Assembly (NCBI RefSeq): GCF_036248255.1
Contig: NZ_CP109179.1
Span: forward strand, 310,001 to 374,000
Direction of reading: 5' to 3'
From: Streptomyces sp. NBC_01717
GTDB taxonomy: Bacteria > Actinomycetota > Actinomycetes > Streptomycetales > Streptomycetaceae
DNA length: 64,000 nucleotides
Positions 11,776-64,000 of this stretch are shown here, one piece after another (the stretch's first letter is position 1; each line of letters opens with the position of its first letter). The notes under the pieces were generated by a model. The model saw nothing but the letters and a program-made list of their open reading frames with translations, ran no database searches and was not told where the DNA came from. A program made the translations under genes and the position numbers.

Positions 11776-12184
11776 GGATGACCCTCCGGAGGGTGTCGAC
11801 GTCCCGGGAAGCATCGAACTCGGCTAGATGGGCGAGGACGCGGCCTTCCGCGTACAGGTCGGCGACCAGTACGCGGACCACATTTAGGTGCAGGCCGAGT
11901 CGGGCGGATATTTCGGCAACCGACAGCGGTTCACGGCACAGCTCAACGATGTCCCGGCGCTCGAAGGTTGTGTGTCTGTAGTCGGTAAGGCCAAGTTCGG
12001 TCGCCACCACCTGGGTCTCGATGGCAATGGCCTCGCTCGAGCCTTGGGTGCGTCCCTGAGTGATAAGGAAGGGGCGGGGCACCAAATCCAGCGGAGGAGG
12101 ATCAGCGGATGGTGCGTCCACAGGCCCGGTATTTCCATAACCGCTCTCCCATGACGTTGGCGGTTCGGGTCCGTACGCGGTCAT
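11753..12184 (-). CDS. cvnC: Conservon DUF742 protein CvnC
   Basis: 143 residues. The N-terminal 35 residues are Pro-rich. The rest is the DUF742 winged-helix-like domain: VPRPFLITQGRT, H-T-T-F-E-R-R-D-I-V-E-L-C, PLSVAEISARLGLHLNVVRV and L-A-D-L. Its start overlaps the cvnB stop (ATGA at 12181-12184). It is a partner in the CvnA-D membrane signalling complex described for Streptomyces. Confidence 0.92.
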   Translation of the reverse strand: MTAYGPEPPTSWESGYGNTGPVDAPSADPPPLDLVPRPFLITQGRTQGSSEAIAIETQVVATELGLTDYRHTTFERRDIVELCREPLSVAEISARLGLHLNVVRVLVADLYAEGRVLAHLAEFDASRDVDTLRRVIRGLRAIS

Positions 12185-12633
12185 GCCTGGATGTGATTCT
12201 TGAGCTCACGGATGAGTTCCGGGGTAAGGGCGGCGCCCGCCCGGTTGGCGAAGAGAGTCATCTCGTAAGCGACCTGCCCGAGGTTCGCTTGCTTCGAGGC
12301 GATCACCCCCATCACCGATCCGCATCCGATGGCGGAGATGAGCAGGTAGCCGTCGTTCATGTCGACGATGACCTTGTTGAGTGAACCGAGCTGGTAGGAT
12401 CCCGCGACCCCACCCGCGAGACTCGTCATGCCCGCAACGATGGCAGCGAGGCGGTCCACATCGGCCCGCTCTCCCTCGATGCACTGGGCGATCATGAGCC
12501 CGTCGGAGGATACGGCGATGGCGTCGCGCACCCCCGCGGTATTCCCAGCGAAACGGCTCAGCAGCCAATTGAAGTTCTCGGCATCCTGGCTCAGGCTGCT
12601 CGACGTTCCCAGGTGCATGTCCGAGCTATTCAT
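12181..12633 (-). CDS. cvnB: Conservon roadblock/LC7 protein CvnB
   Basis: 150 residues, roadblock/LC7 fold. Landmarks are N-W-L-L-S-R-F, GVRDAIAVSSDGLMIAQC, D-R-L-A-A-I-V-A-G-M-T-S-L, and G-Y-L-L-I-S-A-I-G-C-G-S-V-M-G-V. Proteins of this type act as GTPase-activating or scaffolding partners of the CvnD-type GTPase. The start codon lies one base after the cvnA stop, and the end overlaps cvnC. Confidence 0.92.
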   Translation of the reverse strand: MNSSDMHLGTSSSLSQDAENFNWLLSRFAGNTAGVRDAIAVSSDGLMIAQCIEGERADVDRLAAIVAGMTSLAGGVAGSYQLGSLNKVIVDMNDGYLLISAIGCGSVMGVIASKQANLGQVAYEMTLFANRAGAALTPELIRELKNHIQA

Positions 12634-12634
12634 C

Positions 12635-17425: not shown

Positions 17426-18196
17426 TCAGGCCACGTCGTTCTCTCGCTCGATGGCCTTGAGGCGGTTCTTCAGCCGGTAGCTGGGGCCGTTGATGGAGAT
17501 CACTTCGCAGTGGTGGAGGAGTCGGTCGAGGATGGCGGTGGCGAGGACCTCGTCGCCGAAGACCTGGCCCCATTCGCTGAAGGTCTTGTTCGAGGTCAGG
17601 ATGATCGAGCCCTTTTCGTAGCGCTTTGAGATGACCTGGAAGACCAGGTTCGCCTCGGCTCGTTCGAGGGGTTGGTAGCCGACCTCGTCGACGACGAGGA
17701 CGCCGGGCCGCAGGTAGGTGCCGAGCTTGTTCGTCAGCCGGCCTGCGGCCTCGGCGGCCTTGAGGTTGCGGACCATGTCGTCGAGGCTGGTGAAGTAGAT
17801 CGAGTAGCCGGCCCGGCAGGCAGCGACCGCCAGGGCGACGGCGATGTGCGTCTTGCCGACCCCGGGCGGCCCGAGCAGAGCGGCGTTCGCCGTGCCCTCG
17901 ACGAACGAGAGGGTGGCGAGGTCCTTGACCTTGCGCGGGTCGAGGTCGGGCTGGAAGGAGAAGTCGTACTCGTCGAGCGTTTTGTGGTGCGGCAGCTTCG
18001 AGAGTCTCAGGCCCTGGCGGAAGCGGCGGTCGTCGCGGACGGCCAGTTCCTCGGAGAGGACCAGGTCGAGGAAGTCGAGGTAGCCCATCTTCCCCTCGTC
18101 GGCCCGACGGGTGTATTCCCTGATGGTTTCCGCGAGGTGGGGCAGGCCGAGTTTGCCGGCCGTGTTGCGGATACGGGTGCTGACCAGCTCGCTCAA
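17426..18196 (-). CDS. istB: IstB-type transposition helper ATPase (IS21 copy 1)
   Basis: 256 residues, AAA+ helper that assembles on target DNA and stimulates the IstA transposase. Walker A is LLGPPGVGKTHIAVAL (about residues 107-122), Walker B is V-L-V-V-D-E-V-G-Y, and sensor-1 is I-I-L-T-S-N-K. Full length, no frameshift. Its start overlaps the istA stop by 4 bases, as usual in IS21. Confidence 0.95.
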   Translation of the reverse strand: MSELVSTRIRNTAGKLGLPHLAETIREYTRRADEGKMGYLDFLDLVLSEELAVRDDRRFRQGLRLSKLPHHKTLDEYDFSFQPDLDPRKVKDLATLSFVEGTANAALLGPPGVGKTHIAVALAVAACRAGYSIYFTSLDDMVRNLKAAEAAGRLTNKLGTYLRPGVLVVDEVGYQPLERAEANLVFQVISKRYEKGSIILTSNKTFSEWGQVFGDEVLATAILDRLLHHCEVISINGPSYRLKNRLKAIERENDVA

Positions 18197-19617
18197 GACG
18201 TTTCCCTCGCGCTCGGGTGGGTGGTGAAGGGGCGGGTTCCGGTCAGCTCGTCATAGACGGACAGCGGACGGCGGCCGACCTCGATATGGGCGGCCACAGC
18301 CCGGTTCAGCAGAGCCTGCAAAGACCCTGTCTCCTCGCCCCGAGGACGTTCACGACGGGGCTGTGGCAGGACATCGCCGGTGGTGGTCCGGCGTCCCTTG
18401 CCCGTGGGCAGACCATCCCAGTGGGCCTCTTCGACGACGCGGACCCCGCGGCCGATCGCCCGAGGATGGGTGGCCAGCAGCGTCTCGCCGCTGGAGCCGG
18501 CGACGGTGGAATGCAGCATGATCTGCGACTTCGTGGCCCGGATCTCCACCAGCTGCCGGGGGCGGACCCTGCGGGCGGGCACCGAGTAGAGGTTGCCGCC
18601 GAAGGCGACCAGGCAGTCCTTGCCGACCGGCCGCAAGTGCCGCTCGGCCACCAGATACGGGGTCGGCGGCAAAGGCTTGAGAGCCACGTGATCACGGGCA
18701 GCACGCTCTCCGATGATCTGCAGGTGAGTCCTGTGGGCCTGAGCCCGTCGCTGCGGGACCCAGGTAGTGAAGGCGGCGTCCATCTCCTCAACGGAGGAGA
18801 AGGACCGGCCGGACAGGACGTGGTCGCGGACGATCAGAACCTGACGCTCGACACGTCCCTTGCCCGTGGGCCGGTAGGCGGCCAGGACGTCGATGTCGAA
18901 GTCGTAGTGGCCGGCGAACCCGACCGCTTCCGGGTGCAGCGGGACCGCCTCACCTGGGGCGACGTGGCGTCGGACGACGGTCTTGGTCCGGTCGTAGACG
19001 ATCGTCATCGGCACCCCGCCGAAGTGGGCGAACGCGCGGCGGTGGCAGTCGAAGAACGTCTGGAGGTCCTGGCCGGTGGTGAAGCAGCAGAACGGGTCGC
19101 GTGAGTACGACAACGTCATGTGGAAGGAGTAGACCTTCTCGATGCCCATGTGGGCGAGGATCTTGCCCTCGTCTCCCCAGTCCACCTTGGCCTGGGCGCC
19201 GGGGATGACTTCGAAGCGGCGGTGCATGCCCGCCAGTTCATTCGGCGTGATGCCGAGTTCCTCGGCGATCCGGGGCCGGGCTTCCTGGACGTAGAGCTTG
19301 GTCCGCTGGTAGTTGCCGGTGAACCCATACTCCTGCGCGAGCCGCTCGTGGATCACAGCGGCCTTCATCAAGATCTCCGCCCGCAACATCGAGTCGACCA
19401 GCGGGGCGAACTCGTCGATCGCCCTGACCCGTGACCGGCCATTCGGTGACCGGCGCGGAGGCGAGGCGGGTCCGGCCGCCGACAGGTACTTGCTGACCGT
19501 CCGCCAGTTCAGGCCCGTCTCCTTGGCGACCTCGCTCAGGGTCATCGCTCCGGACTCGACCAGGCCACGAAAACGCCGCAGTTCCAGCCAGCGCTGCGGA
19601 TCCAGGACCACGGCCAC
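18193..19617 (-). CDS. istA: IstA transposase (IS21 copy 1)
   Basis: 474 residues, DDE/rve transposase of IS21. The N-terminal HTH is MTLSEVAKETGLNWRTVSKY. The catalytic core begins at A-K-V-D-W-G-D-E-G (first Asp), continues with M-T-I-V-Y-D-R-T-K (second Asp) and K-G-R-V-E-R (Glu). It is full length with overlapping istB downstream, so this copy could be active. Confidence 0.95.
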   Translation of the reverse strand: MAVVLDPQRWLELRRFRGLVESGAMTLSEVAKETGLNWRTVSKYLSAAGPASPPRRSPNGRSRVRAIDEFAPLVDSMLRAEILMKAAVIHERLAQEYGFTGNYQRTKLYVQEARPRIAEELGITPNELAGMHRRFEVIPGAQAKVDWGDEGKILAHMGIEKVYSFHMTLSYSRDPFCCFTTGQDLQTFFDCHRRAFAHFGGVPMTIVYDRTKTVVRRHVAPGEAVPLHPEAVGFAGHYDFDIDVLAAYRPTGKGRVERQVLIVRDHVLSGRSFSSVEEMDAAFTTWVPQRRAQAHRTHLQIIGERAARDHVALKPLPPTPYLVAERHLRPVGKDCLVAFGGNLYSVPARRVRPRQLVEIRATKSQIMLHSTVAGSSGETLLATHPRAIGRGVRVVEEAHWDGLPTGKGRRTTTGDVLPQPRRERPRGEETGSLQALLNRAVAAHIEVGRRPLSVYDELTGTRPFTTHPSARETS

Positions 19618-34650: not shown

Positions 34651-35634
34651 GTAGGCCCGGGGCGCGGTGCCGGGATTGCTCCCGGCCCGTCTCCCCGGAC
34701 CTCTCGCCGAACCCGCCGTGCCTATTACTAGGCAACGGGCTCTCCACGGTCTCTGCCGTCAGGTGGTTGCAGTGGTCCAGGGGTTGGGAATCGTGTTGCC
34801 GCGGTAGCGATACCGGGTGACCGGGATCGCGCTGATCTTCCGCAACTCGATCTCGCCCGCGCTGATCGGCCGCCACCGCCCGGTGGGGGTGGTGAGCCGT
34901 CTGCGGACGTCCGTCCAGTTCCAGTGATGCCGTTCTTGCAGCAGCCGGATGACTCGCCACCAGACGAGGTTGTCCAGGTTGCTGAAGGTGCGCTTTGCGA
35001 CGGCATGCCTGAAATAGTTGGCCCATCCGTGCGTGACCTGGTTGAGGTTCACCAGGACCACGGCCAGGTCCTGCTGCGATGTTCTGTGGGTGAGGGTACG
35101 GATCTTCGCCTTCACCGACCGGGCTGGCCGGTCGGCGATGAAGGTGTAGACGTACCACTTGTCCGTTCCGCGTTTGCGGCGCCACTGGATGTGAAACCCC
35201 AGGAAGTCGAACCCCTCGCTCAGGTGCACCAGTTGGGTCTTGGCTTCCGAGAGCCGCAACCTCATCGGTGCGAGAACCTGGGCGATCTCCTCGCGCAGTG
35301 CCTCGGTGTCCTGCCTGGTCCCCTTGACCAGGACGACGAAGTCGTCCGCGTAGCGGACCAGCCGCCACGAGGGCAGACCCTTGGCACCCCGTCGTTCGCG
35401 CCGACCGCTGGTGGACAGCTCTCCGTCTGGTTCCCATGCCCGGTGCAGGTGCTCATCGAGCACCGACAGGGCGATGTTCGCCAGGAGCGGGGAGATGATG
35501 CCCCCTTGCGGAGTGCCGGTGAATGTCTCCTGATGTTCCCCGAGCTCCGTGAGGAGACCGGACTTCAGGAATGCCTTCACCAGTGCCAGCACCCGCTTGT
35601 CCTTGATCCTCATCCGGACGCGGTCCATCCTCAC
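34651..35634 (-). mobile_element. 3' part of a bacterial group II intron inside the IS630 transposase gene
   Basis: Domain V is visible at 34709-34742 on the minus strand: a 34-nt hairpin beginning GAGCCCGTTGCC and ending GGCGGGTTC. A short domain VI-like stem follows, and the 3' end is near 34651 (reading ...GGGCCTAC before the IS630 exon). The intron-encoded reverse transcriptase lies upstream. The 5' half of the intron is missing beyond 35634. Confidence 0.68.
34759..35634 (-). pseudogene. Group II intron reverse transcriptase/maturase, N-terminus missing
   Basis: 291 residues of the usual 420 or more. Retains RT motifs T-G-T-P-Q-G-G-I-I-S-P-L-L-A-N-I, the catalytic R-Y-A-D-D-F-V-V-L, G-F-D-F-L-G-F and the maturase X region (H-G-W-A-N-Y-F-R-H and L-V-W-W-R-V-I-R-L-L). 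The palm's first Asp region is lost with the 5' end. It ends with R-Y-R-Y-R-G-N-T-I-P-N-P-W and no HNH endonuclease domain. Confidence 0.85.
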
Positions 35635-37490: not shown

Positions 37491-38297
37491 TCATTCCCCG
37501 GTGCTGGCTGCTGGAACCCGTCCGAGGTCGCGTCCGCGCATCCGGTAGCTGTCGCCCTTGAGGGAGGTCACTTCGGCATGGTGGACGAGGCGGTCGATCA
37601 TCGCGGCGGCGACGGTGTCGTCGCCGAAGACCTCGCCCCAGCGTCCGAAGGGCTTGTTGCTGGTGACGATCACGGACGCGCGTTCGTATCTTCCTGAGAT
37701 GAACTGGAAGAACAGGTTCGCGGCCTCGGGCTCGAACGGAATGTAGCCGACCTCGTCGACCACGATCAGCGGGATCCGGCCGAGACGGGTGAGCTCGTCG
37801 CTGAGCCGCCCTGCCGAGTGGGCCTCGGCGAGGCGGGTGACCCACTGGGCGGCGGTGGCGAACGCGACCCGGTGGCCGGCCTGGCAGGCTCTGATCCCCA
37901 GCCCGGTGGCCAGGTGGGTCTTGCCGGTTCCGGGCGGTCCGAGGAAGATCACGTTCTCCTTCCCGACGACAAAGTCGAGCGTCCCGAGGTGAGAGATGAC
38001 CTCGCGCTTGACCGACCGCTGGTGGTCGAAGTCGAAGTCCTCGAGCGACTTGCGGGAAGGAAAACGAGCCGCTCGGATGCGTCCCTCGGCGCCGTGAGAG
38101 TCGCGGGCGGCGACCTCCCGCTGCAGACAGGCGGCCAGATACTCCTCGTGGCTCCACTCCTCCGAGCGAGCCCGATCGGCAAGCCGGGCAGCCGCATCTC
38201 GCAGAGCAGGAGCCTTCAATGCCTTGGTGAGATAGATGAGTTCGGACGTGACATCGCGATTGCTGCCTGCCTGCTTCGTATTGTTCGAGCTCATCAA
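37491..38297 (-). CDS. istB: IstB-type transposition helper ATPase (IS21 copy 2)
   Basis: 268 residues. Walker A is I-F-L-G-P-P-G-T-G-K-T-H-L-A, Walker B is L-I-V-V-D-E-V-G-Y and sensor-1 is V-I-V-T-S-N-K-P-F. Full length. Its start overlaps the istA stop by 4 bases. It is only distantly related to the IstB of copy 1. Confidence 0.95.
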   Translation of the reverse strand: MMSSNNTKQAGSNRDVTSELIYLTKALKAPALRDAAARLADRARSEEWSHEEYLAACLQREVAARDSHGAEGRIRAARFPSRKSLEDFDFDHQRSVKREVISHLGTLDFVVGKENVIFLGPPGTGKTHLATGLGIRACQAGHRVAFATAAQWVTRLAEAHSAGRLSDELTRLGRIPLIVVDEVGYIPFEPEAANLFFQFISGRYERASVIVTSNKPFGRWGEVFGDDTVAAAMIDRLVHHAEVTSLKGDSYRMRGRDLGRVPAASTGE

Positions 38298-39595
38298 GCT
38301 GCCCCTTCACCGGTGATCAGTCCGCCGTCGATGACGCCGAAGATGCGGTCATAGGACTCGAGCGACCGCTCTTCGACCTCAGCGACGTCCGCGGGGATCT
38401 GCTTCGCACCGGCCGTCTTGCGGCCGGCAACGGCAGCGGCAGCATGGTCGAGATCGGTGATCGTCTGGTGTCTGGCCCAGCAGCGGGTATGTCGGGCGAC
38501 CTCGACTCCGCCGCAGGTCACCAGGACCTGGTCCAGGTCGGCGGCCACCTCGACGCGGCGGCCGATAGCCAGCGGATGGACGGAGTAGTCGCAGGTGTCC
38601 AGGCGGACATAGTGGTCCCGCGGCAACCTGAGCGACGCCTTCCACCAGCCCGGCGGAGAGATGGGAGGCAGCGACAGCATCCGCGACCGGTCGGCCTCGA
38701 GCCGGTCGGACGGCCGGGCCTGCAGAGTGCGGTGGATGCGCCGGTTGGCCTTGGTGAGCCAGTCGGCCAGCTGGACGTTGAAGTCAGCCGGCGAGGTGAA
38801 CACCCGCCCCGGCAGAAACGACGTCTCGAGATAGCCGTTCGCCCGCTCGACCAGGCCCTTCGCCTCCGGATCCCGCGGCTTGCAGAGCACGAACCTAACG
38901 CCCAGCAGCCCGGCGAACGCAGCGAACTCATCGGTCAGCCGTGGCCCGCCGGACCGCCAGGAGCCGACGGCTCCCTCGTTTTCCCAGACCAGCGTCCTCG
39001 GGACAGCGCCGAGGTCGGTCAGCAGCCGCCAGTGCCCGGCGATCAGGTCGGCCGCCGACCGCGACGGCAGCATCCGGGCGGTGATCCACCGCGAATAGCC
39101 GGCCACCATCACCAGCACTGGCGGATGTCCCACCTGCCCGAAGCCCAGCGGGATCTCGGCCGGCGGGAACCACAGATCGCACTGGGCCAGCTCGCCGGGT
39201 TCATAGACCGTCCGCGACGCTGGATCGACAGGACGATAGGCAGGCCTCAGTTCGCGGACCCGGTCCTTGAGAACGGTCAGGCCCCGGTCCCAGCCGAGAC
39301 GTTCGGCGATCACTGTCGCCGGCATATCGGGCCACTGCTGGAGCAGTTCGCGGATCTGCGGCTCGACGACGTCGACGATCGAGCCCTTTGACGCCCTCTG
39401 GTACTTCGGCGGTGCGTCGTCCGCGATGGCTCTGCGAACGGTGTTCCTCGAGATTCCCAGCTTCCTTGCGATGGCTCTCACCGGCATCTCCTCGGCCCGG
39501 TGCAGCCGGCGGATCTCCGCCCAGTCCTCCACGCTGATCACCACTCCTCCCGGTCTGGCTAACGAGCCAGACCCCTGGAGGGGGTCAACTTTCAA
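38294..39595 (-). CDS. istA: IstA transposase (IS21 copy 2)
   Basis: 433 residues. The N-terminal HTH is EEMPVRAIARKLGISRNTVR. The rve core has Asp in G-E-L-A-Q-C-D-L-W-F, Asp or Glu in T-L-V-W-E-N-E-G and Glu in E-A-K-G-L-V-E-R-A-N-G-Y. Full length and in frame, so it may be active. Confidence 0.93.
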   Translation of the reverse strand: MKVDPLQGSGSLARPGGVVISVEDWAEIRRLHRAEEMPVRAIARKLGISRNTVRRAIADDAPPKYQRASKGSIVDVVEPQIRELLQQWPDMPATVIAERLGWDRGLTVLKDRVRELRPAYRPVDPASRTVYEPGELAQCDLWFPPAEIPLGFGQVGHPPVLVMVAGYSRWITARMLPSRSAADLIAGHWRLLTDLGAVPRTLVWENEGAVGSWRSGGPRLTDEFAAFAGLLGVRFVLCKPRDPEAKGLVERANGYLETSFLPGRVFTSPADFNVQLADWLTKANRRIHRTLQARPSDRLEADRSRMLSLPPISPPGWWKASLRLPRDHYVRLDTCDYSVHPLAIGRRVEVAADLDQVLVTCGGVEVARHTRCWARHQTITDLDHAAAAVAGRKTAGAKQIPADVAEVEERSLESYDRIFGVIDGGLITGEGAA

Positions 39596-39632: not shown

Positions 39633-40233
39633 ACCTGCTCCCCAGCCTCCTCGAGCCGACCGCTCAATCCGCCGCCGGGCTCGTGGCTCTCCACCACGAA
39701 GCGGTGGCAGTCGGTAACGACGTATTTCTCGATCAAAGCGACCATGCTGGATTGGTGGTGAACCAGATAGTCCTTGTAGCCGTTTTCTCTGGCAGGTCCA
39801 GCACGAATCGAAGGGAAGCAGGGTCACACGGCGTGGAAGATCGGAAGACCTTGAACAGGCTGCAGTGCTCGCTGAAGCAGTCGCGTGCGGCGGCGGATAC
39901 GCGGGCTGCTGCTGCGGCATGCCCCGCAAACGGGTCGCTCCGACCACTCGTGGTGGCAGATCTTGGTGTGGAGTCCACTGGTGCGGCAGCGGGTGCCCTA
40001 CGCGGAGCCACCTGCCGGACCGGGCCGCTCCGAGTCCTTGTGAGCGGCCCTGGGCGCAGGTTATGCGGAGCATGACGGTTGCAACGATGCACGCAACTAC
40101 GAGTGCAACGAAAAGCGATGGACGTTACGGCCGGCGATCGGGCAACCGAGGCGCTCGGGCCAACGGTTACGGCAACAGCAGTTGCTACGACCTCATGATC
40201 GGCTGTGGTTATCGAGCATAGGAGAGCAAGTCC
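39633..40233. other. Stretch without a recognised gene
   Basis: Both strands are open for 130 to 490 codons in places, but this reflects high GC content. The long minus-strand frame is largely antisense to the JAMM gene. I recognise no protein family. It presumably contains the promoter of 40234. Confidence 0.45.
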
Positions 40234-41331
40234 ATGATTCCAGTAGCCGGGAACGAAGGCGCTCAGGGCGCGGCTGTGATCATGGGGCATCGAACTCTTG
40301 AACCGTTCGTCAGCGCCGCACTGTCCGCATACGAGACGTGTACGCCCGAGAAGCCGCCATCGTGTTTCGCCGTCCTGGTCGGCGAGCTCGTCAAGGGCGA
40401 GGCTCTGGTCCATGGAGTGGAGTTCGGGCGTAACGTGCGGGCCACGGAACTGGCCGCTACGGATGAGTACAGGTCGACGATCGTGCCACGCTTCGGGCCG
40501 GCCTACGACAACGAACACCGTGGGTTTTGGTGCGACTCCACCGACCTGTTGAACATCAGCCGAAAGGCCGAGGCGCAAGGCTGGGACATTCTCGGGTCCA
40601 TCCACCTGCACCCCGACTGGCATCGCATAGGTCCGCCCGCTGAGCGTGGGCTCACGATCAGCGAGGCGCCCACCCCCATGGATGCCTACATGATCAGCAG
40701 CACCTCCTGGCCGGTGAACATGATCTGTTACCTGGAGCGCCCGAACCAGGATGTTCACTACACTCTGGCTGCGTGGGGCCCTGGTGCCGAGCCAGGCGAC
40801 TGTGTGCCGATTCCGATTCAGTTCCTGATCAATGCCGAGGCGACGCCCCCACCCAGCGACCAGGCAATTCCTTCGATCTTTGCGGACATGGTCCACGCCT
40901 GGTCCAGGGCTGATCCCGAAGCATTCACCCGGGCCTTCGCCCCGGACGCCGACTTCACGTCCGTGCGCTCCAACCACTTCAGAGGAAGCCAGGAGATCGC
41001 GGCGGCGCACAGCCAACTCTTCAAGACGGTGTACGCCGGTACTCGTCTCACGGCAACCGTGCAGCGGGTGAGCAATCCGAGGCCGGACATCGCCATCGCC
41101 CATGTGGAATTTGGCCTGGCCCACGTGGACGGAAGGCCGGCACGGGGCTTGGGAGGCAATCCGGGCCACACCATGCATGCGCAGGCCGTGCTCGAAAGAC
41201 GCCACGGCGACTGGCAGATCATTTCGTTCATGAACATGGTGCCGCTGCAGCCACCGCCCGAGCCTCGTTCTACGGGGACGGCCGGTGAGGACTTGGGCAT
41301 GAAGACGCAGACGCGGGGCGGGTCTCGATGA
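40234..41331 (+). CDS. JAMM metalloprotease-like domain fused to an SgcJ/EcaC (SnoaL-like) domain
   Basis: 365 residues. About 40-185 look like a JAB/MPN+ metalloprotease: Glu51 in L-V-G-E-L, H124-L-H126 in GSIHLHPDW, and T147/D150 in S-E-A-P-T-P-M-D, giving E...HxH...[S/T]xxD. The spacing from HxH to the Thr/Asp pair is longer than in classical JAMM. About 212-337 are an SgcJ/EcaC-type NTF2-like fold (HAWSRADPEAFTRAFAPDAD, F-R-G-S-Q-E-I-A-A-A-H, and closing D-W-Q-I-I-S-F-M-N). The ATG at 40234 follows GGAGAGCAAG. Known JAMM proteins cleave peptide bonds at the ends of ubiquitin-like proteins; NTF2-like domains often bind small molecules. No ubiquitin-like gene is adjacent. The VOC gene downstream on the same strand suggests a small-molecule pathway. 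The combination is unfamiliar to me. Confidence 0.78.
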   Translation: MIPVAGNEGAQGAAVIMGHRTLEPFVSAALSAYETCTPEKPPSCFAVLVGELVKGEALVHGVEFGRNVRATELAATDEYRSTIVPRFGPAYDNEHRGFWCDSTDLLNISRKAEAQGWDILGSIHLHPDWHRIGPPAERGLTISEAPTPMDAYMISSTSWPVNMICYLERPNQDVHYTLAAWGPGAEPGDCVPIPIQFLINAEATPPPSDQAIPSIFADMVHAWSRADPEAFTRAFAPDADFTSVRSNHFRGSQEIAAAHSQLFKTVYAGTRLTATVQRVSNPRPDIAIAHVEFGLAHVDGRPARGLGGNPGHTMHAQAVLERRHGDWQIISFMNMVPLQPPPEPRSTGTAGEDLGMKTQTRGGSR

Positions 41332-41608
41332 TGCGCTTTCCCGAGCGGGGTGGACAGCATCGGGGACGCCGGCTGCAGCTCGGCGCTATGCGGACACGTT
41401 CGAGGTGCTCCGCGCTCCCTCGGCGCCGGGTACGCTCTCTGGCCCGTTCACCCCACGGTTATTCGCGGCAACCGCATGCGGTGCAGCAGCGGTTTCCGCG
41501 GAATCCGGCCGTGCGCACGCTGCTGTTGCCCGGTGCCGGGCAGATCACGTTCATGCGAACCCCGCTTCTGCTGCTGACCACGATCTGCACACCAACAATG
41601 GAGACGAC

Positions 41609-41974
41609 ATGACCCGGCCGAAACTTCGTCACCTGGCTCTTTACGCCCGCAATCCGGAGGTCCTGGCGAAGTTCTATTGCGAGCATTTCGCCATGGAAAT
41701 CTTTTTCAGCGACGCGGAGGGCAACCATTTCCTGAGCGACGGATATCTGACCCTCGCGCTACTGAAGCTCCAGATGGCAGGTGAGGCACCAGTGGGGCTG
41801 AATCATTTCGGCTTCCACATCGACGACGCCGCGAGTACGTGCGCGGCCCTCACAGCGGACGGGCTGGAGGAACCGGCCCTCCGTGCAACCACGCGGCCGT
41901 TCGCCGAGTTCCGGGCAATTGACCCGGAGGGCAACTGGTTCGACCTGTCGGAACACGGCTACGGCGTCCCGTAG
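41609..41974 (+). CDS. VOC-family (glyoxalase/dioxygenase fold) protein
   Basis: 121 residues, one VOC module: K-L-R-H-L-A-L-Y-A-R-N-P at the start, then N-H-F-G-F-H-I-D-D, and D-P-E-G-N-W-F-D-L at the end. Likely metal ligands are His in R-H-L-A, His in L-N-H-F-G and Glu or Asp in the last strand. ATG at 41609 follows GGAGACGAC. It is 277 bases downstream of the JAMM-SgcJ/EcaC fusion, on the same strand; the gap holds no convincing gene. VOC enzymes include lyases, isomerases and resistance proteins; the substrate is unknown. Confidence 0.85.
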   Translation: MTRPKLRHLALYARNPEVLAKFYCEHFAMEIFFSDAEGNHFLSDGYLTLALLKLQMAGEAPVGLNHFGFHIDDAASTCAALTADGLEEPALRATTRPFAEFRAIDPEGNWFDLSEHGYGVP

Positions 41975-56591: not shown

Positions 56592-59500
56592 TCAGGGGAG
56601 AGTGAGTGGTTGGGTTTTGTCTCCGGGTGCGGGGGCGGGCCGGTCGGGGTGGATCGCGACGAGTCGGGCGTTGCCCTGCGCGAAGGTGCTCTCCCGGCCG
56701 AAGAACTGGTAGCCGGACTCGATGAGCTGGAGGATCTCGTGCCCCAGCACCGCCGAGGGGCCTCCCTCGTCGGGCGACCTGTTGCTGTCCCAGAGGGCGC
56801 CGTTGCCCAGGTTCTCGATCTCCTGCCAGAAGTTTCCCGCGTTCAGCTGCCCGCCGATCAGCATGCCTTCGATCCGCGGACCGAGACTGGTGACGATTTT
56901 GAACACGGCGCGCTCCGCGATGCCGCCGTCCACAAAGGCGTAGTTGGCGGCAACGGACCAGTTGGAGATGTTCAGCCGCCGGCCTATCCGCGCGTCCTCG
57001 GACAGCCGGTCCCCGACCTGCCGCTTGCCCTGCTGGTACGCGGCCCACTGACTGATGTCGCCCTTGCGGCCGAGGACGAGCTTGCGCTTCGCACCGAGCG
57101 CCGCCGCCCGGAAGTTCGCCATCGTCTTCGACGCGGTGGCGGTCAGGTCGGCACGGATGCTCGTCTCCAGGGCTGCCACCAGCTCGCCCCTGCCCCGCCC
57201 CTGGGGCGGACCCACCAGCCTCTTCAGGTACTCAATGCTGTTATTAGGTTCCGAGTTGAGAATGCCCCATTTCGGGCTTTTGTGATTCGCCTGCCAGGTG
57301 TCGTACTCGGCGAGGTACCTGTCGATTCCGCCCTCCGCCTTGGCGACCAGCCTGGGCACCTCACCGTCGATCTTGCCCGGGTAGTGCATGCGAGGATCGA
57401 CGCCAGCGGTGAGGACCTGTTCGACCGCGTCAGACATGTCGCTGACCCCCTCGAACCGCTCCTGACCGCTGCTGCCCGAGCCCGGGGAAGAGGCAATGGC
57501 TGCGGAGCTGCCGCTGTTCCAGCCGTCGGACGGGAAGACGGCCGTCGTGCCGGGGGAGGTTCCGCGCGCGCCAAGCGGGGTGTTGCCGTTCCAGTCCCGG
57601 GGGATGTCCTTGACGTCGACGAGCTGAACCAAAATCACTTTCTTGCCGTGCACCTGGATGTTCTTGCCGTACACCGTGGTGACCGTGTCGCCCACTGAGA
57701 CGTTTTCGTGCCGGCCTACGACGCGGAACGTGGAGCCGCGCGGCAGCAGCCGCTCACGTTCGACGTTCCCGTACTTGGCAATTTCAGCGACTGCGGCGCC
57801 GCGGCTGGAGACCACCTCGAACACCACGCTCCGCGAGACAAAGTGACGCTCGCCGTCATGCTGTACGTAGTCTTTGGCGAACCCGCTGGCGGTCTGCGGG
57901 CAGTGCGAGCTGGACATGTAGGGGGCGTGTCGGTAGGTGCTGCCCACGGGGAATGCCTTGCGCACCCAGTCCTCGACGTTCTCGGCCTTGAGAACCTCTG
58001 GCGGGATGTTGTGACCGTGGTAGGTGATGTGCGGAGTGTTCGGGGTCGCGGCCTTGGCGATCGCCAAGTCCAGGTGGCCAAGGACTGTCTCCATCGGCGC
58101 GCCCAGCTTGCTCCCCGGGATGTCGAGGAAGTCCTCCTTCTTCAGGTGCATGTTGATCGGCTTGAAGGCATAGTCGGTATAGCCCCTGACGTACTTGCGC
58201 TCGGCCGCGCTGAGGCTCGTGGCCCACTTCTGCGACTCCGGCACGAGCCTGTTCGCCCTGTCGGCCTCCAGTTTCGTGCGGGGTTCGGCGCCGCCCAGGC
58301 CGTATCGCTGCCATGGCCTTCCCGCCTTGCCGGTTGCGGCGGCCTGGAGGATCTGCCCAACCTGGTCGGCCGCCAACCGGCCATAGACGACCGAATCGTT
58401 CTCCACGCGGTACGGCCACGGGGAGTCAGCCAGCGCCTGGTGCCGGACGCTGTCGAGGGAGGAGAAGACGAGCTCGGCACGAGGGTGCCCGCCCTCGTCC
58501 TCGGTACCCGGGTAGACCGTCACCCGGCCTGCGAAAGCCCGGTCCGAACGGTGCTTCCTCCACCACAGTGAAGACCTCTTATCGCCCCAGGCCACGCTCT
58601 GCCCGCCGCCCTTGGGGTCGGCGGACCTCTTCCGGGCACCAACACCGGCGACGTCAAGGACCTCTTCGACCCTGCGCAGGAAGTCATCGGCAGCAGACAT
58701 GCTGGTGTTGTTCCAGCCTAGAGGGAACGGCGTTGTTGTGGCGGGGGCAGTCCCACGCGCCGTCTTGCCGAGGCCCGCGGCGCCGCTCGCGGTGGCGGAC
58801 TTGCCCCAGGGGTGGAAGGTGCGCCAGGCGGTGGCCTTGCCGTCGGCGTCGTAATTCAGGTGAACACGTGGGGCTTCGCCTTCTGACTGGCTGAAGGTCA
58901 CCTGGCCGACGGGTGCGTTGACCGTCAAGCCGGTGATGTCCGCGATGATCTGGGCGTCGGGCTGTGCGTGGCTGGCGGTGGCGGACTGCGCTCCTGCCGT
59001 GCAGGACAGCAAAGTGATCTCGTTGAATTCCGACCAGTCATTCTTGGCAGTGTGCAGTACCTGGCCGAGTTCCTCGGCGGACCAGACCCTGGTGCTGCCG
59101 TCCGGGCCGACGACCTCGAACCCTTTGTCGTCATGGTGGAGCGCCAGGAAAAAGGACTTTCCGAACCCTTCCGGAAGATCCCACTCCTCACCGACCCGCT
59201 TCCGGCCATCCACCCGCCACTGCAAATAAGTCTTCTGCTCGGCAAGCTTGCGGTAGACGTCCTTACGCTTCTCGAGGTCCTTGGCGTCGAAGGACATCAA
59301 ACCGATGCGCTTGCCCTTGGAGTCGGCGATCGCCTGTACTTGCGCGTTGACGGCAGCCCACCGCTCCCGCTCGTCGCTGGACGGCGTCGATGGCTGCTCC
59401 GACGACGAGGCCGCAGACTGCGGCGCGTGGTCGCGTCCCGCACCGCTCTGTCCTGGGTCGGCCAGCGTGCTGCTGCGTGTGGAGCTTGCGTCCGGCGTTG

Positions 59501-62500
59501 GCAGGGCCGGAGTCGAGACCGCCAGCCCGTAATCCATGACGTCCGATTGCCCTGGTATCGAGTTCCAGCCTTCCTTGGGGAATTGCGCTTCCGTCAGAGG
59601 TGTCTGGTCAGGTGTGTCCTGGGTCCCCGCCTCGGTCGGGGGCCGCGGCGTCGGGGAAGGGAGCGGGGTCGCCTCGGAGACGGTCACTTCCACGTAAGCC
59701 GAACCCGCTCGGCCTCGGACGGCGCGCTTGTCGACCACGGTGAATTTCATGTCCGGCGGGAAGAGGACCAGGTTCGTGTCCGGCCGGTCGGAGAAGGGCC
59801 TGACATCACGTCCCGTGGAGTTGCGCACACGGAAGACGACCAGATGCTGCGGCCCGTCGCTGTTCGGTTTGGGCAGGAGCTGGAGCGCCTTCTCTAGGTC
59901 CGTCGTGGCTCTCTGGACCAGCGCGAGACGTACCTCACCCCCAAGCTGGGCGGGGCTCTCGACGGCGGTCCCTGGCATCCATACCGGCAGGAAGACTTCC
60001 TTGCCCACAGGCGGCAGTGCTGTCAACGCCTCCTTCACCATGTACGCGTGGACGGGCAGGAAGCTCAGGGTGGTTTCGGCGATCTGGTCCAGACGCCGCG
60101 TGACGGCACGGACGGAATGCCCGGGCCAGTCAGCCGTGTTTCGGGTGACGACCTGGTCCAGCTCCTCCACCGTCTTGGTGAATTGCGGGCTCTGGACGAG
60201 AAGCCGCGGCAGCATCTCGGCGGCGCCGCTGTACGGGCCCAGGGCACGCGCTTCCACCCGCGCAGCCGCGATGTTCTTCCACCGGTTGAGCCAGTTGGTG
60301 AGCAGTTGGCCGGTGGCGTCGTCGAAACGAGACGTGAACTTCTTGAAAGCGTCTTCGGGTTGTTCGGTCGTGGCGTGCAGTTGCAGGGCGGCTATGTGCG
60401 CCTGCTGCAGGTGGACGGAGCCCTGCTGCCGGTGATCGGCCTTCCACCGCTCGACCGCGGCAGCCACGCTGAGGGTCTGACTCGTCACCGCGCCCCGCCA
60501 CTGGTTGCCGGGCGACGCGAACACCTGCTGCAGGTCGTCAGGCGCGGGCGCTTGCGCCTCCCGCCTGGTCGCCTGGCTCATCAGCCTGTAGAAGCCCAGG
60601 TGGGGCAGAGTCAGTCCCGCCCGGAGCTCTTCAGGGGCGGGCTCGGGCAGCACGGCGGCGACCGTCTCGTCGGCCCACTGGTACATGCCCAGCGCGTCGC
60701 CTGAGAGGATCTCGGCACGCTTCTTCGTGGGGTGCACCGCCTGTATGGCTTGGAGCACCTCGATCATCGAGGCCGTGCCGGTTTCCAGCGAGTGGCTCAT
60801 CACCGCCAGATGGAAGGGGCCCGGGTTGTCGGCCCCGCTCACCTGGTCGTACGCGGCCAGCAGCCACTTCTCGCTGTCGGCCGGACCGGCCGACAGCATA
60901 AATCCCCGCAGGGTCAAGCTCTGCCGTTGGTCGGCGGGGTAGGGCAGGTCGGCCGGCGGGCGTGCGGTCAAGCTGGCCGGCCTCAACTCGGGCTCGCTCT
61001 CCCACAGGTCGGCGAAGGTGTTCGGCTGTTCCTCGGTATTGGCGTAGGCGGCACGCCGGAACGCGTCCATCAAGTCGGCCAGGGCCGCCTCACCGCTCTC
61101 GCCGAGCAGGTGGTCGAAGGCCTGCACCGCCTCAGCGGCGTTACGCGGCTCAGCGTCCAGGAACACCCGGGATGCCGCCTCCGCACCGTAATGGCCCGCC
61201 AACAGCGCATACAGCTCGGACACCGCCCGCCGGGCCCCTTCGATCACCGCCGGGCTGGCAGCAAGCGCCCGACCGACCATGCCTTCATACAGCAGACTCT
61301 GCCAGGTCCAGGCAGGATCGTCGTACACCGCGTCGAAGGGCGACAGCCTCTCTCCCGAGCCGAACCCCGAAGGGTCAGCAATTATCCACTTGGCTTCCTC
61401 AAGCATCTCCTTGGTGCGTGCGGTGACCTGGGCCTGCTTGTCCGCCCGCTCCTTGAGCAGCCGCTCGGCAAGCTCCCGGCGGCTGCCCTCAGCGTCAGAC
61501 AGGAATACGACGAGCCTGTCGAACACCTCCTTCTCAGCACTCTCGTAGAGAGGAAGATTTGTCACTAGAATGTGCCGGAACGCCTTGGCGCTTTCCCGCA
61601 TTACGTCGTCTTTGTCCGCCATCGAGGACGCCTGGATTTCCGCGACCTCCATCTCGAAGCGGGTCTCAAGGAATTCCAAGATGACCGCCAGTTCGTCCGC
61701 CTTCTTGGCGTCCTTACTTGCTGCCTTAGCCAGTGGGTCGATGGTGCCGTCGGGCAGATAGCGGCCGTCGCCGTCCGGGTTGTGCACCACGATGGGCCGG
61801 GGCCATCCGGTCGGCTGCTGTGTGAGCCCGAGGTCGATCGGCAACCCGGAGGCGAACTTCGCCTCCGGCCGGTACAAACGCGAGACCAGCTTGCCGAGCC
61901 CTTCCTCGTCGAGGCGGAACGCATGCCGGGGGAAGTCCCCGCCGATCCGCGCCACCTCGCGCAGCACGGACAAGGCGATGCCCTCACGCACGTCCGCACC
62001 GTGGAAGACCTCCTCCTCGAAGGAGACCAGAACCCGCCGCCGGCCGGCCAGCCCATCCGGGTAGGTGTTCACCCACTGAATGCGCTCCCCGTGGAAGTCG
62101 ATGCCATCCAGGACCCTGGCGGAGCGCAGAGGCCTCTCACGGCCCGGCATCCGCAGCTCGCGCATGCTGGCCCGGCCCAGCGGGTCCCCCTGGTCGTGCA
62201 GGGACACCCAGCCGCCGAGCCGCTCCAGCTCCTCGATGCCGAAGACCAGCGTGGTGGGACCGTACCGGGTCTGCATCGGGGCGTCCCCGGACTCCACCCG
62301 GAAGAACGCGAAGTCCCCGTTGCCAAACGGCTCCGCGTCTGTCTTACTCCAGCCCGAGGCGAGGAAGGCATCGCCCTGCCGTTCCAGAGCCGACAGGGAA
62401 ACCAGCACACCGCTGTTGGCGATGGCATGGAAAGCAGGGGTGGCGTGCTTGAGCCTCAGCGGAAGATTCCGCAGCCGCTCATACAGGTCCTGCCACTGCT

Positions 62501-64000
62501 TGTCGCCCAGCAGGTCAGCCACATCCGACCGCAGTGCCGCGACGTTGCCGCGCGACAACTCCCGCACGAACTCCGCCCTATCCGCACGCGACATCTTCTC
62601 AAGATCCAGCACGACGGAGCCCCACTGCTTCCCTTCCGGGACGCTGGCATACGCCTTGCGCCCGCGGTAGGCCCGCACAAGTTCGGCCAGCGCCCCCAAC
62701 GTGCTCGGAGCCACAGGCCGCAAACCATCCCGGACCAGCTCGCGGGCATTACCGGCCGCCACCGCGCGCTGCACCGCGTCCGCGAGATTCCGGGCCGCCG
62801 CCACCGTCGGCACAAAACTGTCCCTCAAGTGGTACTGGCCGCCGAAACGGGCAGCGTCCACCATGAAACCGTTCAACGCCTGCGCCACCACATCGGCGAA
62901 ACGCCGCACCTCGCCCGCATGCTCGAGTACGCGGCGGACAGCGGCCCCTGAATCGCCAACTTTTCGATGGAGCAACCGATTCCACCGGTTGCGGAACCGG
63001 TCAATCTCGGTGAGAGCGTTGTAGAAGTCCCCGCCGCTCAGCAGCTGTTCCAGGCCGTCCAGTGACGCCTTCAGCTCCTGGAAGCGAGCTTGGACCTCCT
63101 CACCGGTCCACAGAACCTGGCTACCGTCCCCACCGCCGGCGGCGCGGGCCGCACGGTCCAGACGGGAAGCAAAGTCCCGAACCCTGCGAGCCCACCTGGA
63201 CCCATCCAGCCCCGCGAACCGGTCCACCAACTCGTGCAGCTCCCGCTGCGACAGAATGCCGGTGTCAATCAGCACCTTCGTCGTATCCCGCGTGTCGGGA
63301 TCCAGCGCCCGCCATTCCCGCCAGGGCAAGACGCCCCGCGCGCGAGCATCACTCAACGAGCCCAGCGACGTGACCTCCTCGCCGTCGAACACGAAATAGG
63401 GCGGGTTGAGTTCCTCGCCCTGGTTTGTTGGCGAGTTCCAACCGTTGGACGGGAATTGCATCGCGGTGTCGGGGGCGGTCCCGCCAACCGCGTTCCGGAG
63501 GCCCCCGGACCCGTCACCAGTCCCGGACGAGCCCTGAGGATGGAAGGTGCGCCAGGCGGTGGCGTTGCCGTCGGCGTCGTATTTCAGGTTGACACGCGCA
63601 TCCTGGCCCCACTCGGTGAACGCCACCTCGCCGACAGGCGCGTTGACCGTCCACCCGGAAACGTCCGCAACGATCTGCGCATCGGCCTGGGTGCGGTCCG
63701 GGGTCGTGGACTCCGCGCCCGCGGTGCAGGACAGCAAAGTGATCTGCTTGAAGCCGGACAGCTCCTTCTTACGCGCGCGCAGTTCCCGGCCGACCTCCTC
63801 CGCACTCCACACCCGGCTGCGCCCGTCCGGCCCCACGACATGGAACCCCTGCTCGTTATGGTGAAGCGCCAGGAAGAACGACTCCCCGAACCCTCGCGGA
63901 AGGTCCCGCCACTCACCGACCTTCCCCTTGACCGCGTCCTTCCGCCACTGCACATAACTCCTCTGCCCGCCAAGCTTGCCGTACACGTCCTTACGCGCCG
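56592..64000 (-). CDS. Giant modular protein ('lonely Cys'-like repeats and ART-like domains), 5' end off the window
   Basis: At least 2468 residues; the frame continues past base 64000, so M at 63986 is not a true start. Residues are numbered from it. Two copies of one module (about 1-165 and 1575-1740) share K-D-V-Y, F-F-L-A-L-H-H, V-V-G-P-D-G-x-x-R-V-W-S-A-E-E, T-L-L-S-C-T-A-G (Cys 87 and about 1660) and A-T-A-W-R-T-F-H-P. This looks like what databases call the 'lonely Cys domain'. About 190-1450 form a long unrecognised region ending in a degenerate ART-like fold. About 1985-2135 is a clearer ART: S-T-Y-R-H, M-S-S-S-H-C, then V-E-R-E-R-L-L-P-R-G-S-T-F. About 2200-2464 looks like a second one (N-W-S-V-A-A-N-Y-A-F, V-F-K-I-V-T, G-H-E-I-L-Q). 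The motif F-P-x-x-G-W-N recurs four times at module joints. It is probably an effector or surface polyprotein. Confidence 0.8.
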   Translation of the reverse strand, partial: ARKDVYGKLGGQRSYVQWRKDAVKGKVGEWRDLPRGFGESFFLALHHNEQGFHVVGPDGRSRVWSAEEVGRELRARKKELSGFKQITLLSCTAGAESTTPDRTQADAQIVADVSGWTVNAPVGEVAFTEWGQDARVNLKYDADGNATAWRTFHPQGSSGTGDGSGGLRNAVGGTAPDTAMQFPSNGWNSPTNQGEELNPPYFVFDGEEVTSLGSLSDARARGVLPWREWRALDPDTRDTTKVLIDTGILSQRELHELVDRFAGLDGSRWARRVRDFASRLDRAARAAGGGDGSQVLWTGEEVQARFQELKASLDGLEQLLSGGDFYNALTEIDRFRNRWNRLLHRKVGDSGAAVRRVLEHAGEVRRFADVVAQALNGFMVDAARFGGQYHLRDSFVPTVAAARNLADAVQRAVAAGNARELVRDGLRPVAPSTLGALAELVRAYRGRKAYASVPEGKQWGSVVLDLEKMSRADRAEFVRELSRGNVAALRSDVADLLGDKQWQDLYERLRNLPLRLKHATPAFHAIANSGVLVSLSALERQGDAFLASGWSKTDAEPFGNGDFAFFRVESGDAPMQTRYGPTTLVFGIEELERLGGWVSLHDQGDPLGRASMRELRMPGRERPLRSARVLDGIDFHGERIQWVNTYPDGLAGRRRVLVSFEEEVFHGADVREGIALSVLREVARIGGDFPRHAFRLDEEGLGKLVSRLYRPEAKFASGLPIDLGLTQQPTGWPRPIVVHNPDGDGRYLPDGTIDPLAKAASKDAKKADELAVILEFLETRFEMEVAEIQASSMADKDDVMRESAKAFRHILVTNLPLYESAEKEVFDRLVVFLSDAEGSRRELAERLLKERADKQAQVTARTKEMLEEAKWIIADPSGFGSGERLSPFDAVYDDPAWTWQSLLYEGMVGRALAASPAVIEGARRAVSELYALLAGHYGAEAASRVFLDAEPRNAAEAVQAFDHLLGESGEAALADLMDAFRRAAYANTEEQPNTFADLWESEPELRPASLTARPPADLPYPADQRQSLTLRGFMLSAGPADSEKWLLAAYDQVSGADNPGPFHLAVMSHSLETGTASMIEVLQAIQAVHPTKKRAEILSGDALGMYQWADETVAAVLPEPAPEELRAGLTLPHLGFYRLMSQATRREAQAPAPDDLQQVFASPGNQWRGAVTSQTLSVAAAVERWKADHRQQGSVHLQQAHIAALQLHATTEQPEDAFKKFTSRFDDATGQLLTNWLNRWKNIAAARVEARALGPYSGAAEMLPRLLVQSPQFTKTVEELDQVVTRNTADWPGHSVRAVTRRLDQIAETTLSFLPVHAYMVKEALTALPPVGKEVFLPVWMPGTAVESPAQLGGEVRLALVQRATTDLEKALQLLPKPNSDGPQHLVVFRVRNSTGRDVRPFSDRPDTNLVLFPPDMKFTVVDKRAVRGRAGSAYVEVTVSEATPLPSPTPRPPTEAGTQDTPDQTPLTEAQFPKEGWNSIPGQSDVMDYGLAVSTPALPTPDASSTRSSTLADPGQSGAGRDHAPQSAASSSEQPSTPSSDERERWAAVNAQVQAIADSKGKRIGLMSFDAKDLEKRKDVYRKLAEQKTYLQWRVDGRKRVGEEWDLPEGFGKSFFLALHHDDKGFEVVGPDGSTRVWSAEELGQVLHTAKNDWSEFNEITLLSCTAGAQSATASHAQPDAQIIADITGLTVNAPVGQVTFSQSEGEAPRVHLNYDADGKATAWRTFHPWGKSATASGAAGLGKTARGTAPATTTPFPLGWNNTSMSAADDFLRRVEEVLDVAGVGARKRSADPKGGGQSVAWGDKRSSLWWRKHRSDRAFAGRVTVYPGTEDEGGHPRAELVFSSLDSVRHQALADSPWPYRVENDSVVYGRLAADQVGQILQAAATGKAGRPWQRYGLGGAEPRTKLEADRANRLVPESQKWATSLSAAERKYVRGYTDYAFKPINMHLKKEDFLDIPGSKLGAPMETVLGHLDLAIAKAATPNTPHITYHGHNIPPEVLKAENVEDWVRKAFPVGSTYRHAPYMSSSHCPQTASGFAKDYVQHDGERHFVSRSVVFEVVSSRGAAVAEIAKYGNVERERLLPRGSTFRVVGRHENVSVGDTVTTVYGKNIQVHGKKVILVQLVDVKDIPRDWNGNTPLGARGTSPGTTAVFPSDGWNSGSSAAIASSPGSGSSGQERFEGVSDMSDAVEQVLTAGVDPRMHYPGKIDGEVPRLVAKAEGGIDRYLAEYDTWQANHKSPKWGILNSEPNNSIEYLKRLVGPPQGRGRGELVAALETSIRADLTATASKTMANFRAAALGAKRKLVLGRKGDISQWAAYQQGKRQVGDRLSEDARIGRRLNISNWSVAANYAFVDGGIAERAVFKIVTSLGPRIEGMLIGGQLNAGNFWQEIENLGNGALWDSNRSPDEGGPSAVLGHEILQLIESGYQFFGRESTFAQGNARLVAIHPDRPAPAPGDKTQPLTLP

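Follow-up and report, generated by a model that had tools for sequence, protein, structure and literature searches.

A JAMM-SgcJ/EcaC fusion gene and a VOC gene lie among insertion sequences

The window is the whole stretch of DNA that we analyzed, 64,000 nucleotides from Streptomyces sp. NBC_01717 (contig NZ_CP109179.1, positions 310,001 to 374,000). Among insertion sequences in this window sits a cassette of two genes that encode a JAMM-SgcJ/EcaC fusion protein and a VOC protein (Table 1). The VOC gene likely starts at the ATG at position 41609, leaving a gap of 277 bases after the fusion gene.

Table 1. Features of the cassette and the mobile elements around it (positions are those of the window)
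Feature	Position	Strand	Evidence
IS21-type transposition genes and group II intron reverse transcriptase, around the cassette	17426-19617, 37491-39544, 34759-35628		
Ribosome-binding site of the fusion gene, AGGAGAG	40220..40226	+	Sequence; seven bases 5' of the ATG
JAMM-SgcJ/EcaC fusion gene, 365 aa	40234..41331	+	ORF list, profile matches, AlphaFold2 model
JAMM-fold domain, residues 12-198	40267..40827	+	
S43, column of the canonical JAMM catalytic Glu	40360..40362	+	Glu in 0/202 rows
E51, initially proposed catalytic Glu	40384..40386	+	Glu in only 17/202 rows
Extra segment specific to the family (about residues 72-93), at approximately the place of Ins-1 in other JAMM proteins	40447..40512	+	Alignment with Mec+ and relatives
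H124-x-H126-P-D-W-H130, putative zinc-binding signature	40603..40623	+	H124, H126 and P127-H130 all in 202/202 rows
T147-P-M-D150, S/T-x-x-D part of the JAMM motif	40672..40683	+	Alignment
SgcJ/EcaC NTF2-like domain, residues 204-341	40843..41256	+	
Ribosome-binding site of the VOC gene, GGAG	41600..41603	+	Sequence
VOC (glyoxalase/dioxygenase fold) gene, 121 aa	41609..41974	+	PF00903, 28.2 bits (cut-off 20.6)

We found that the second half of the fusion protein matches TIGR02246 (SgcJ/EcaC) with 79.9 bits, above the NCBIfam cut-off of 33.95, and that it agrees with this family in structure comparison too. An initial annotation, made from the sequence, had described one 365-residue frame with an SgcJ/EcaC domain in its second half and a VOC gene next on the same strand, and it was right on each point; the VOC protein scored above the Pfam cut-off. 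The first half matched Pfam Prok-JAB with 12.5 bits, under the 25-bit cut-off. In structure, solved JAMM proteins align with the AlphaFold2 model of the fusion protein (mean pLDDT 79.8, pTM 0.57) across residues 12-198. That is, this half has the JAB/MPN fold that the initial annotation had proposed.

SgcJ and SgcE6 of C-1027 belong to the SgcJ/EcaC family TIGR02246 and share sequence model and fold with the window domain. In contrast to these proteins, the window domain is fused to a JAMM domain, and no enediyne cluster was recognized by eye in the gene list of the window. We also considered an iota-carbonic anhydrase identity for this half and rejected it. The signature of those enzymes is (H)HHSS in the C-terminal part, as given in the available part of the source (PMC8425729); this motif is absent from the window domain, which ends with FMNMVP.

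In the VOC protein, H8, H66 and D112 are invariant in all 18 aligned sequences (chosen from 53), and, going by the VOC fold, these two His and one carboxylate are candidate metal ligands. The protein had no match to PDB sequences at E 0.01. When its model was compared with solved structures, the Z scores of extradiol dioxygenases, glyoxalase I, methylmalonyl-CoA epimerase and ArsI differed from one another by no more than about 2 units; the other four versions of this model reached a mean pLDDT of only 60-66. Glyoxalase I and the fosfomycin transferases, both VOC enzymes, act on thiol adducts, which is only suggestive for the window.

The JAMM site is conserved and lacks the canonical glutamate

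A scan for two short patterns, covering 84,980 species genomes, led to 101 confirmed loci. The best 80 of the 101, a plasmid locus and the window make up the 82 loci used here. Together with 120 listed proteins they gave an alignment of 202 rows, in which the window is present in both sets and 187 sequences are distinct. G88, Y91, R96, W99, H124, H126, P127, D128, W129, H130, D150, N162 and W181 are invariant in all 202 rows. Because H124, H126, D128, H130 and D150 do not vary, an active metal site is likely.

The initial annotation had read a JAMM pattern in the first half, with E51 as the catalytic Glu and H124, H126 and D150 as the remaining residues. The fold and the His and Asp residues stand, but E51 does not. 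It is poorly conserved (Table 1), and we rejected it as the catalytic Glu on that ground; the canonical Glu aligns with S43. The S43 column contains P, S, R, G, A or C. In this region a Mec+-like protein of the same genome reads HPDEACGVVAG and the window protein KPPSCFAVLVG. The PDB match 2kcq also puts the canonical Glu at S43, although the match is weak there (0.9 bits). Because hhalign of the family against Mec+ aligned nothing globally and 30 columns locally, our placement of the Glu column rests on 2kcq, on the strand pattern and on a MAFFT alignment with Mec+, in which the last part of the Mec+ motif is wrongly placed.

The fusion protein resembles JAMM/MPN+ metallo-isopeptidases in fold and in its putative zinc ligands (H-x-H and D). 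It differs from the deubiquitinases AMSH, Rpn11 and BRCC36 and from archaeal PfJAMM1 in two ways. The catalytic Glu of their ExnHxHx7Sx2D motif is missing, and 20 residues separate H126 from T147, compared to 7 between the second His and the S/T in the motif as given in the available part of PMC9313428. Judged from its sequence by the Glu test, the fusion protein is not a canonical JAMM isopeptidase. The term metalloprotease, used initially, is thus not supported, given a Glu column that is empty of Glu throughout the alignment and an E51 that is not conserved.

We looked for another acidic residue in the extra segment, which forms helices at residues 73-82, 84-87 and 89-92 in the AlphaFold2 model. 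E78 (40465-40467) is its best-conserved acidic residue, being Glu in 196 of the 202 rows. The other six, five 3HCDH fusions and the protein P0109, have V or Q, which weakens E78 as a sure replacement for the general base. In CSN5, Glu104 of the Ins-1 loop binds zinc in the inhibited state, according to the available part of PMC9313428; any likeness of E78 to this residue would be only a parallel.

JAMM genes occur with several kinds of partner genes

We determined which partner genes lie within 3 kb of the JAMM gene in the 82 loci, using tblastn. SgcJ and VOC were both present in 49 loci, 26 of these with a divergent LysR gene. The others had 3HCDH (18 loci, one of them also with a weak SgcJ match), AKR (5), VOC only (4), P450 (2), SgcJ only (1) or none of these (3); one of the last group (L026) has SDR and flavin monooxygenase genes directly downstream. 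Altogether, SgcJ was less than 3 kb from JAMM in 51 of the 82 loci and VOC in 53. Elsewhere in these loci, a remaining 1.08 Mb, neither was found in any of the 82, and the LysR, 3HCDH, AKR and P450 queries matched in 6, 2, 5 and 4 loci, respectively. The association of SgcJ and VOC with JAMM is more than chance.

The loci are not independent: 27 of the 82 come from Lentzea (16), Amycolatopsis (6), Kibdelosporangium (2), Umezawaea (2) and Kutzneria (1). All 26 loci with LysR fall among these 27, and LysR is restricted to one clade of the tree. The AKR partners come from one clade, and likewise the P450 partners. Partner types are distributed by clade on a tree of 93 rows, with a minimum of 15 changes from one type to another. 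In one locus (L025) the VOC gene is divergent, so the link between JAMM and VOC is not due to one inherited order alone.

Several of these genes are also found fused. JAMM is joined to SgcJ in the window protein, P0002-P0006 and P0016. SgcJ is joined to VOC in 13 of the 82 loci and in 47 proteins (P0121-P0167), 46 of which have precomputed Pfam matches to NTF2-like and VOC models. In L095 (9878-11482) a single open frame, 534 codons from the first ATG, covers JAMM, SgcJ and VOC; P0121, the database protein from that contig, starts inside this frame and has 294 aa. There are 3HCDH-JAMM fusions (L027, L029 and L030) and JAMM-P450 fusions (P0115 and P0116), and three loci (L058, L077 and L122) have the order P450-JAMM-P450-SDR. 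A plasmid of Streptomyces sp. NBC_01320 carries JAMM, SgcJ and VOC as separate genes in the order seen in the window.

The layout had initially been presented as one without known precedent. We found no published description of a JAMM-SgcJ-VOC layout in the literature searched, which covered few subscription papers. However, the layout is not peculiar to this strain, since it recurs elsewhere in several fusion arrangements. Within the class, the accessory family was detected at E 1e-10 in 6 of 394 genomes, including that of the window and one (G013) counted on two short pieces only.

The 3HCDH partner has as its best PDB match an enzyme of vitamin B6 breakdown, narrowly above 3-hydroxybutyryl-CoA dehydrogenases, and its NCBIfam matches are far under the cut-offs. 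Fusions of L-carnitine dehydrogenase with thioesterase exist, in which a 3HCDH protein is joined to a hot-dog thioesterase. The 3HCDH-JAMM fusions are similar in that 3HCDH is linked to a second enzyme, but the second domain is JAMM. Of the AKR loci, L028 has a polyketide synthase and L043 an NRPS-type protein as neighbors, and no biosynthetic cluster was recognized by eye in L033. Nor was one recognized by eye around the window cassette in the gene list, from which ten genes were run against Pfam.

The JAMM domain is related to chuangxinmycin-type proteins

A search of the class gave two distant JAMM members, in genomes G152 (locus L119) and G250 (locus L120). The L120 protein is P0168, named from Frankia casuarinae, and its gene is the first in the order JAMM, ThiS-P450 fusion, ApbA-type reductase, aminotransferase and B12-binding radical SAM (L120:7606-13689). 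The ThiS-P450 protein has 504 residues; its ThiS domain (PF02597, 38.3 bits) has a Gly-Gly end, after which the protein continues into the P450. A search for further chuangxinmycin-type relatives among 35 genomes from the family and order to which G250 belongs matched two, G250 and G152 themselves. In L119 (1782-12424) the JAMM relative lies amid genes for P450, SDR, DUF6875, FAD-linked oxidase, tryptophan halogenase and aminotransferase, perhaps an uncharacterized pathway to a halogenated product.

Searching with the L120 JAMM protein gave 74 proteins. One of them, P0210, is a JAMM-ThiS fusion of 359 aa, with enzyme and carrier on one chain. Another, P0198, is recorded as 'JAMM metalloprotease' of Actinoplanes tsinanensis, a species that makes chuangxinmycin. 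Based on the species and the name of the record, we infer that P0198 is CxnF.

In the available part of a secondary account of the chuangxinmycin pathway (PMC12087186), CxnB is an aminotransferase, and the deubiquitinase-like sulfurtransferase CxnF acts together with CxnE, a ubiquitin-like carrier, to convert a ketone to a thione. There the NAD(P)H reductase CxnC converts the thione to a thiol and the P450 CxnD makes the C-S bond; the B12 radical SAM protein CxnA goes with CxnA1, and CxnR is a LysR-type regulator (PMC12087186). The genes of L120 fit the enzyme types of CxnA, CxnB, CxnC and CxnF, with the CxnD and CxnE types as one gene. L120 thus appears, from its sequence, to be a chuangxinmycin-like gene set in which ThiS carrier and P450 form one protein. 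The divergent LysR gene of 26 of the 82 loci recalls CxnR, but its restriction to one clade counts against the parallel.

We compared the window's group to the chuangxinmycin type (75 rows, consisting of the 74 proteins and L119). Over 179 residues, the window JAMM domain and P0198 share 40% identity (E 6e-48), and a myxobacterial member shares 43% with P0198. The column of the canonical Glu in the 75 rows contains R (68), N (3), S (2) or a gap (2), with Glu in none of 73. E78, G88, R96, W99, H124, H126, P127, W129 and N162 are present in 75 of 75 rows, and H130 and D150 each in 74. Both groups have the signature HxHP[DN]WH...PTxMD. In contrast, residue 128 is N in 69 of the 75 chuangxinmycin-type rows and D in all 202 rows of the window's group. 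A quick tree of 91 rows, which left out 14 Lentzea rows and used 10 of the 74 proteins, has a branch with 100% SH-aLRT support that sets the ten chuangxinmycin-type proteins apart from all others; L119 forms a long branch there and its placement is unsure.

Taking P0198 as CxnF, the window protein is like CxnF in family, in the absence of the canonical Glu, in the common signature and in keeping E78. It is unlike CxnF in its surroundings. The CxnF pathway has its own carrier, reductase and P450, and neither SgcJ nor VOC is named in the available part of its description (PMC12087186), whereas the scanned piece of the window gave no carrier match, and no reductase or P450 matched within 3 kb of the window JAMM gene.

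No carrier gene was found near the cassette in 81 of 82 loci

We searched the 82 loci with a ThiS model built from 15 sequences, using frames of at least 70 codons and again with at least 40. No carrier gene was found in 81 of the 82 loci, of which 58 extend 9.5 kb on both sides and 24 are short of this on one side. The sole match below E 1 was weak (E 6e-5) and came from L025. The model does detect the ThiS domain of L120. It gave no carrier match in the piece of the window that was scanned. The matching stretch of L025 (12833-13564, minus strand), from Actinomadura macrotermitis, is MoaD/ThiS-like, lies about 2.8 kb from JAMM and has no Gly-Gly end in the part seen.

Of the 32 genomes or records tested, drawn from the 82 loci, 31 contain ThiS-family genes; the exception is a plasmid record alone. 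The window genome has four, all on another contig. Used as a query, the L120 ThiS domain matched 231 of 396 genomes of the phylum, the matches being ordinary CysO-type proteins. The available part of PMC6006322 describes a Streptomyces pathway that can use carriers encoded outside its cluster; because that pathway borrows carriers, the absence of one near the cassette is not fatal to a role for a carrier.

The initial annotation had envisaged a small-molecule setting with a ubiquitin-like carrier, from which a product could be released or on which it could be modified, and had suggested a search for conserved co-occurrence with ubiquitin-like or biosynthetic genes. The kinship to chuangxinmycin-type proteins and the ThiS-P450 protein of L120 agree with the setting and a possible carrier. 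Release of a product from the carrier is not supported in the form proposed, and the 82 loci showed no co-occurrence with a carrier gene apart from the one weak match in L025.

Possible functions of the cassette

In our view the JAMM half, which is related to the chuangxinmycin JAMM protein and would bind zinc, most likely transfers sulfur from a carrier and is not a protease; we give this close to an even chance of being correct. The putative zinc would be held by H124, H126 and D150, with H130 nearby in sequence, and would bind the thiocarboxylate of a carrier of the ThiS/MoaD/CysO type. Sulfur from the carrier would then pass to a carbonyl of a small molecule. Hydrolysis would be disfavored without the general-base Glu of JAMM peptidases. 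The product would be completed by partner enzymes, which are NAD(P)H reductases and P450 elsewhere in the family and the fused SgcJ/EcaC domain and VOC in the window. Our data show the fold, the conserved residues, the loss of the Glu, the cassette and the homology to the chuangxinmycin-type protein, and from there we infer the zinc, the sulfur transfer with its donor and substrate, and what SgcJ and VOC would do. Because the missing Glu is common to the window's group and the chuangxinmycin type, it fits sulfur transfer rather than hydrolysis. Partners found in other branches (dehydrogenase, reductase, and P450 with SDR) resemble the steps of chuangxinmycin synthesis after sulfur addition, and the L120 gene set and the four ThiS-family genes of the window genome also speak for this reading. 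In contrast, SgcJ and VOC, the partners in the window's branch, are not known parts of a chuangxinmycin-like pathway. The difference at residue 128 and the different partners leave room for a different reaction. Further points against sulfur transfer are the 81 loci with no carrier match, the fully supported branch between the two groups and the six rows with V or Q in place of E78.

Alternatively, the JAMM half may be a zinc hydrolase acting on an amide, ester or thioester of a small molecule. The part of the Glu would then fall to H130, D128 or E78, and SgcJ and VOC would isomerize or oxidize the product. The invariant residues of the metal site (H124, H126, H130, D128 and D150 in all 202 rows) and partners that are small-molecule enzymes speak for this reading. 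We consider it unlikely, as none of the 202 rows has the general-base Glu and sulfur transfer is the activity linked to the nearest relative from a characterized pathway (PMC12087186, in its available part). The loss of the Glu also speaks against a protease like QbsD or PtmS1, which would process a sulfur carrier by trimming the tail after Gly-Gly so that the carrier can be loaded. A Streptomyces JAMM protease of this kind takes part in a thioacid pathway, according to the available part of PMC6006322, and the ThiS domain of L120 ends in Gly-Gly before the P450. Mec+ (the CysO hydrolase), QbsD and PtmS1 have in common with the window's relatives that they are JAMM proteins tied to sulfur carriers. 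However, no capped carrier was found adjoining the cassette in the 82 loci, and the window genome already has a canonical JAMM protein, the Mec+-like one near a CysO-like gene, which keeps the Glu that the fusion protein lacks. A protease of this type is thus quite improbable. If the missing Glu meant instead that the JAMM fold is catalytically dead, it could serve as a ligand binder or as a scaffold for SgcJ and VOC, and the recurrent JAMM-SgcJ and SgcJ-VOC fusions would fit such a complex. A dead fold would not be expected to keep its two His, its Asp and one more His invariant in 202 rows that span actinobacteria and myxobacteria, and we regard this last alternative as very improbable.

If sulfur transfer is the correct reading, a broader notion follows that we offer tentatively and think somewhat doubtful. 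The cassette could be one branch of a set of unrecognized, self-contained thiolation modules of actinobacteria and myxobacteria. In such modules a JAMM protein would act without proteolysis, moving sulfur from a household carrier to a carbonyl, and an exchangeable partner (3HCDH, AKR, SDR, P450, or SgcJ plus VOC) would finish the product. The window would hold an undescribed third chemistry, with the sulfur step and an NTF2-like enzyme on one chain and VOC completing it. If so, the use of a protease fold for carbon-sulfur chemistry extends far beyond one antibiotic pathway, and small genes annotated as 'hypothetical protein' or SgcJ/EcaC oxidoreductase would mark undiscovered sulfur metabolites in Streptomyces, Lentzea, Amycolatopsis and myxobacteria. 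The JAMM family is in effect a natural experiment on how a JAMM domain functions without its Glu, and a JAMM gene set with interchangeable partners may mark unrecognized enzymes for sulfur addition or related small-molecule chemistry.

Other genes near the cassettes

We noted several other genes in the window and in related loci. Four loci from the same branch as the window (L022, L023, L024 and L121) have an EF-hand gene immediately upstream of JAMM, as judged with Pfam in two of the four. On the minus strand of the window, 11167-15145 contains a conservon-like set, in which a NIT/HAMP/ATPase sensor kinase and an ATP/GTP-binding protein have small genes between them. The plasmid locus L101 has a similar annotated conservon-like set plus a P450 gene, upstream of the cassette. 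At the end of the window (56592-63998, minus strand), an open frame of 2468 codons that leaves the window has two modest ADP-ribosyltransferase matches.
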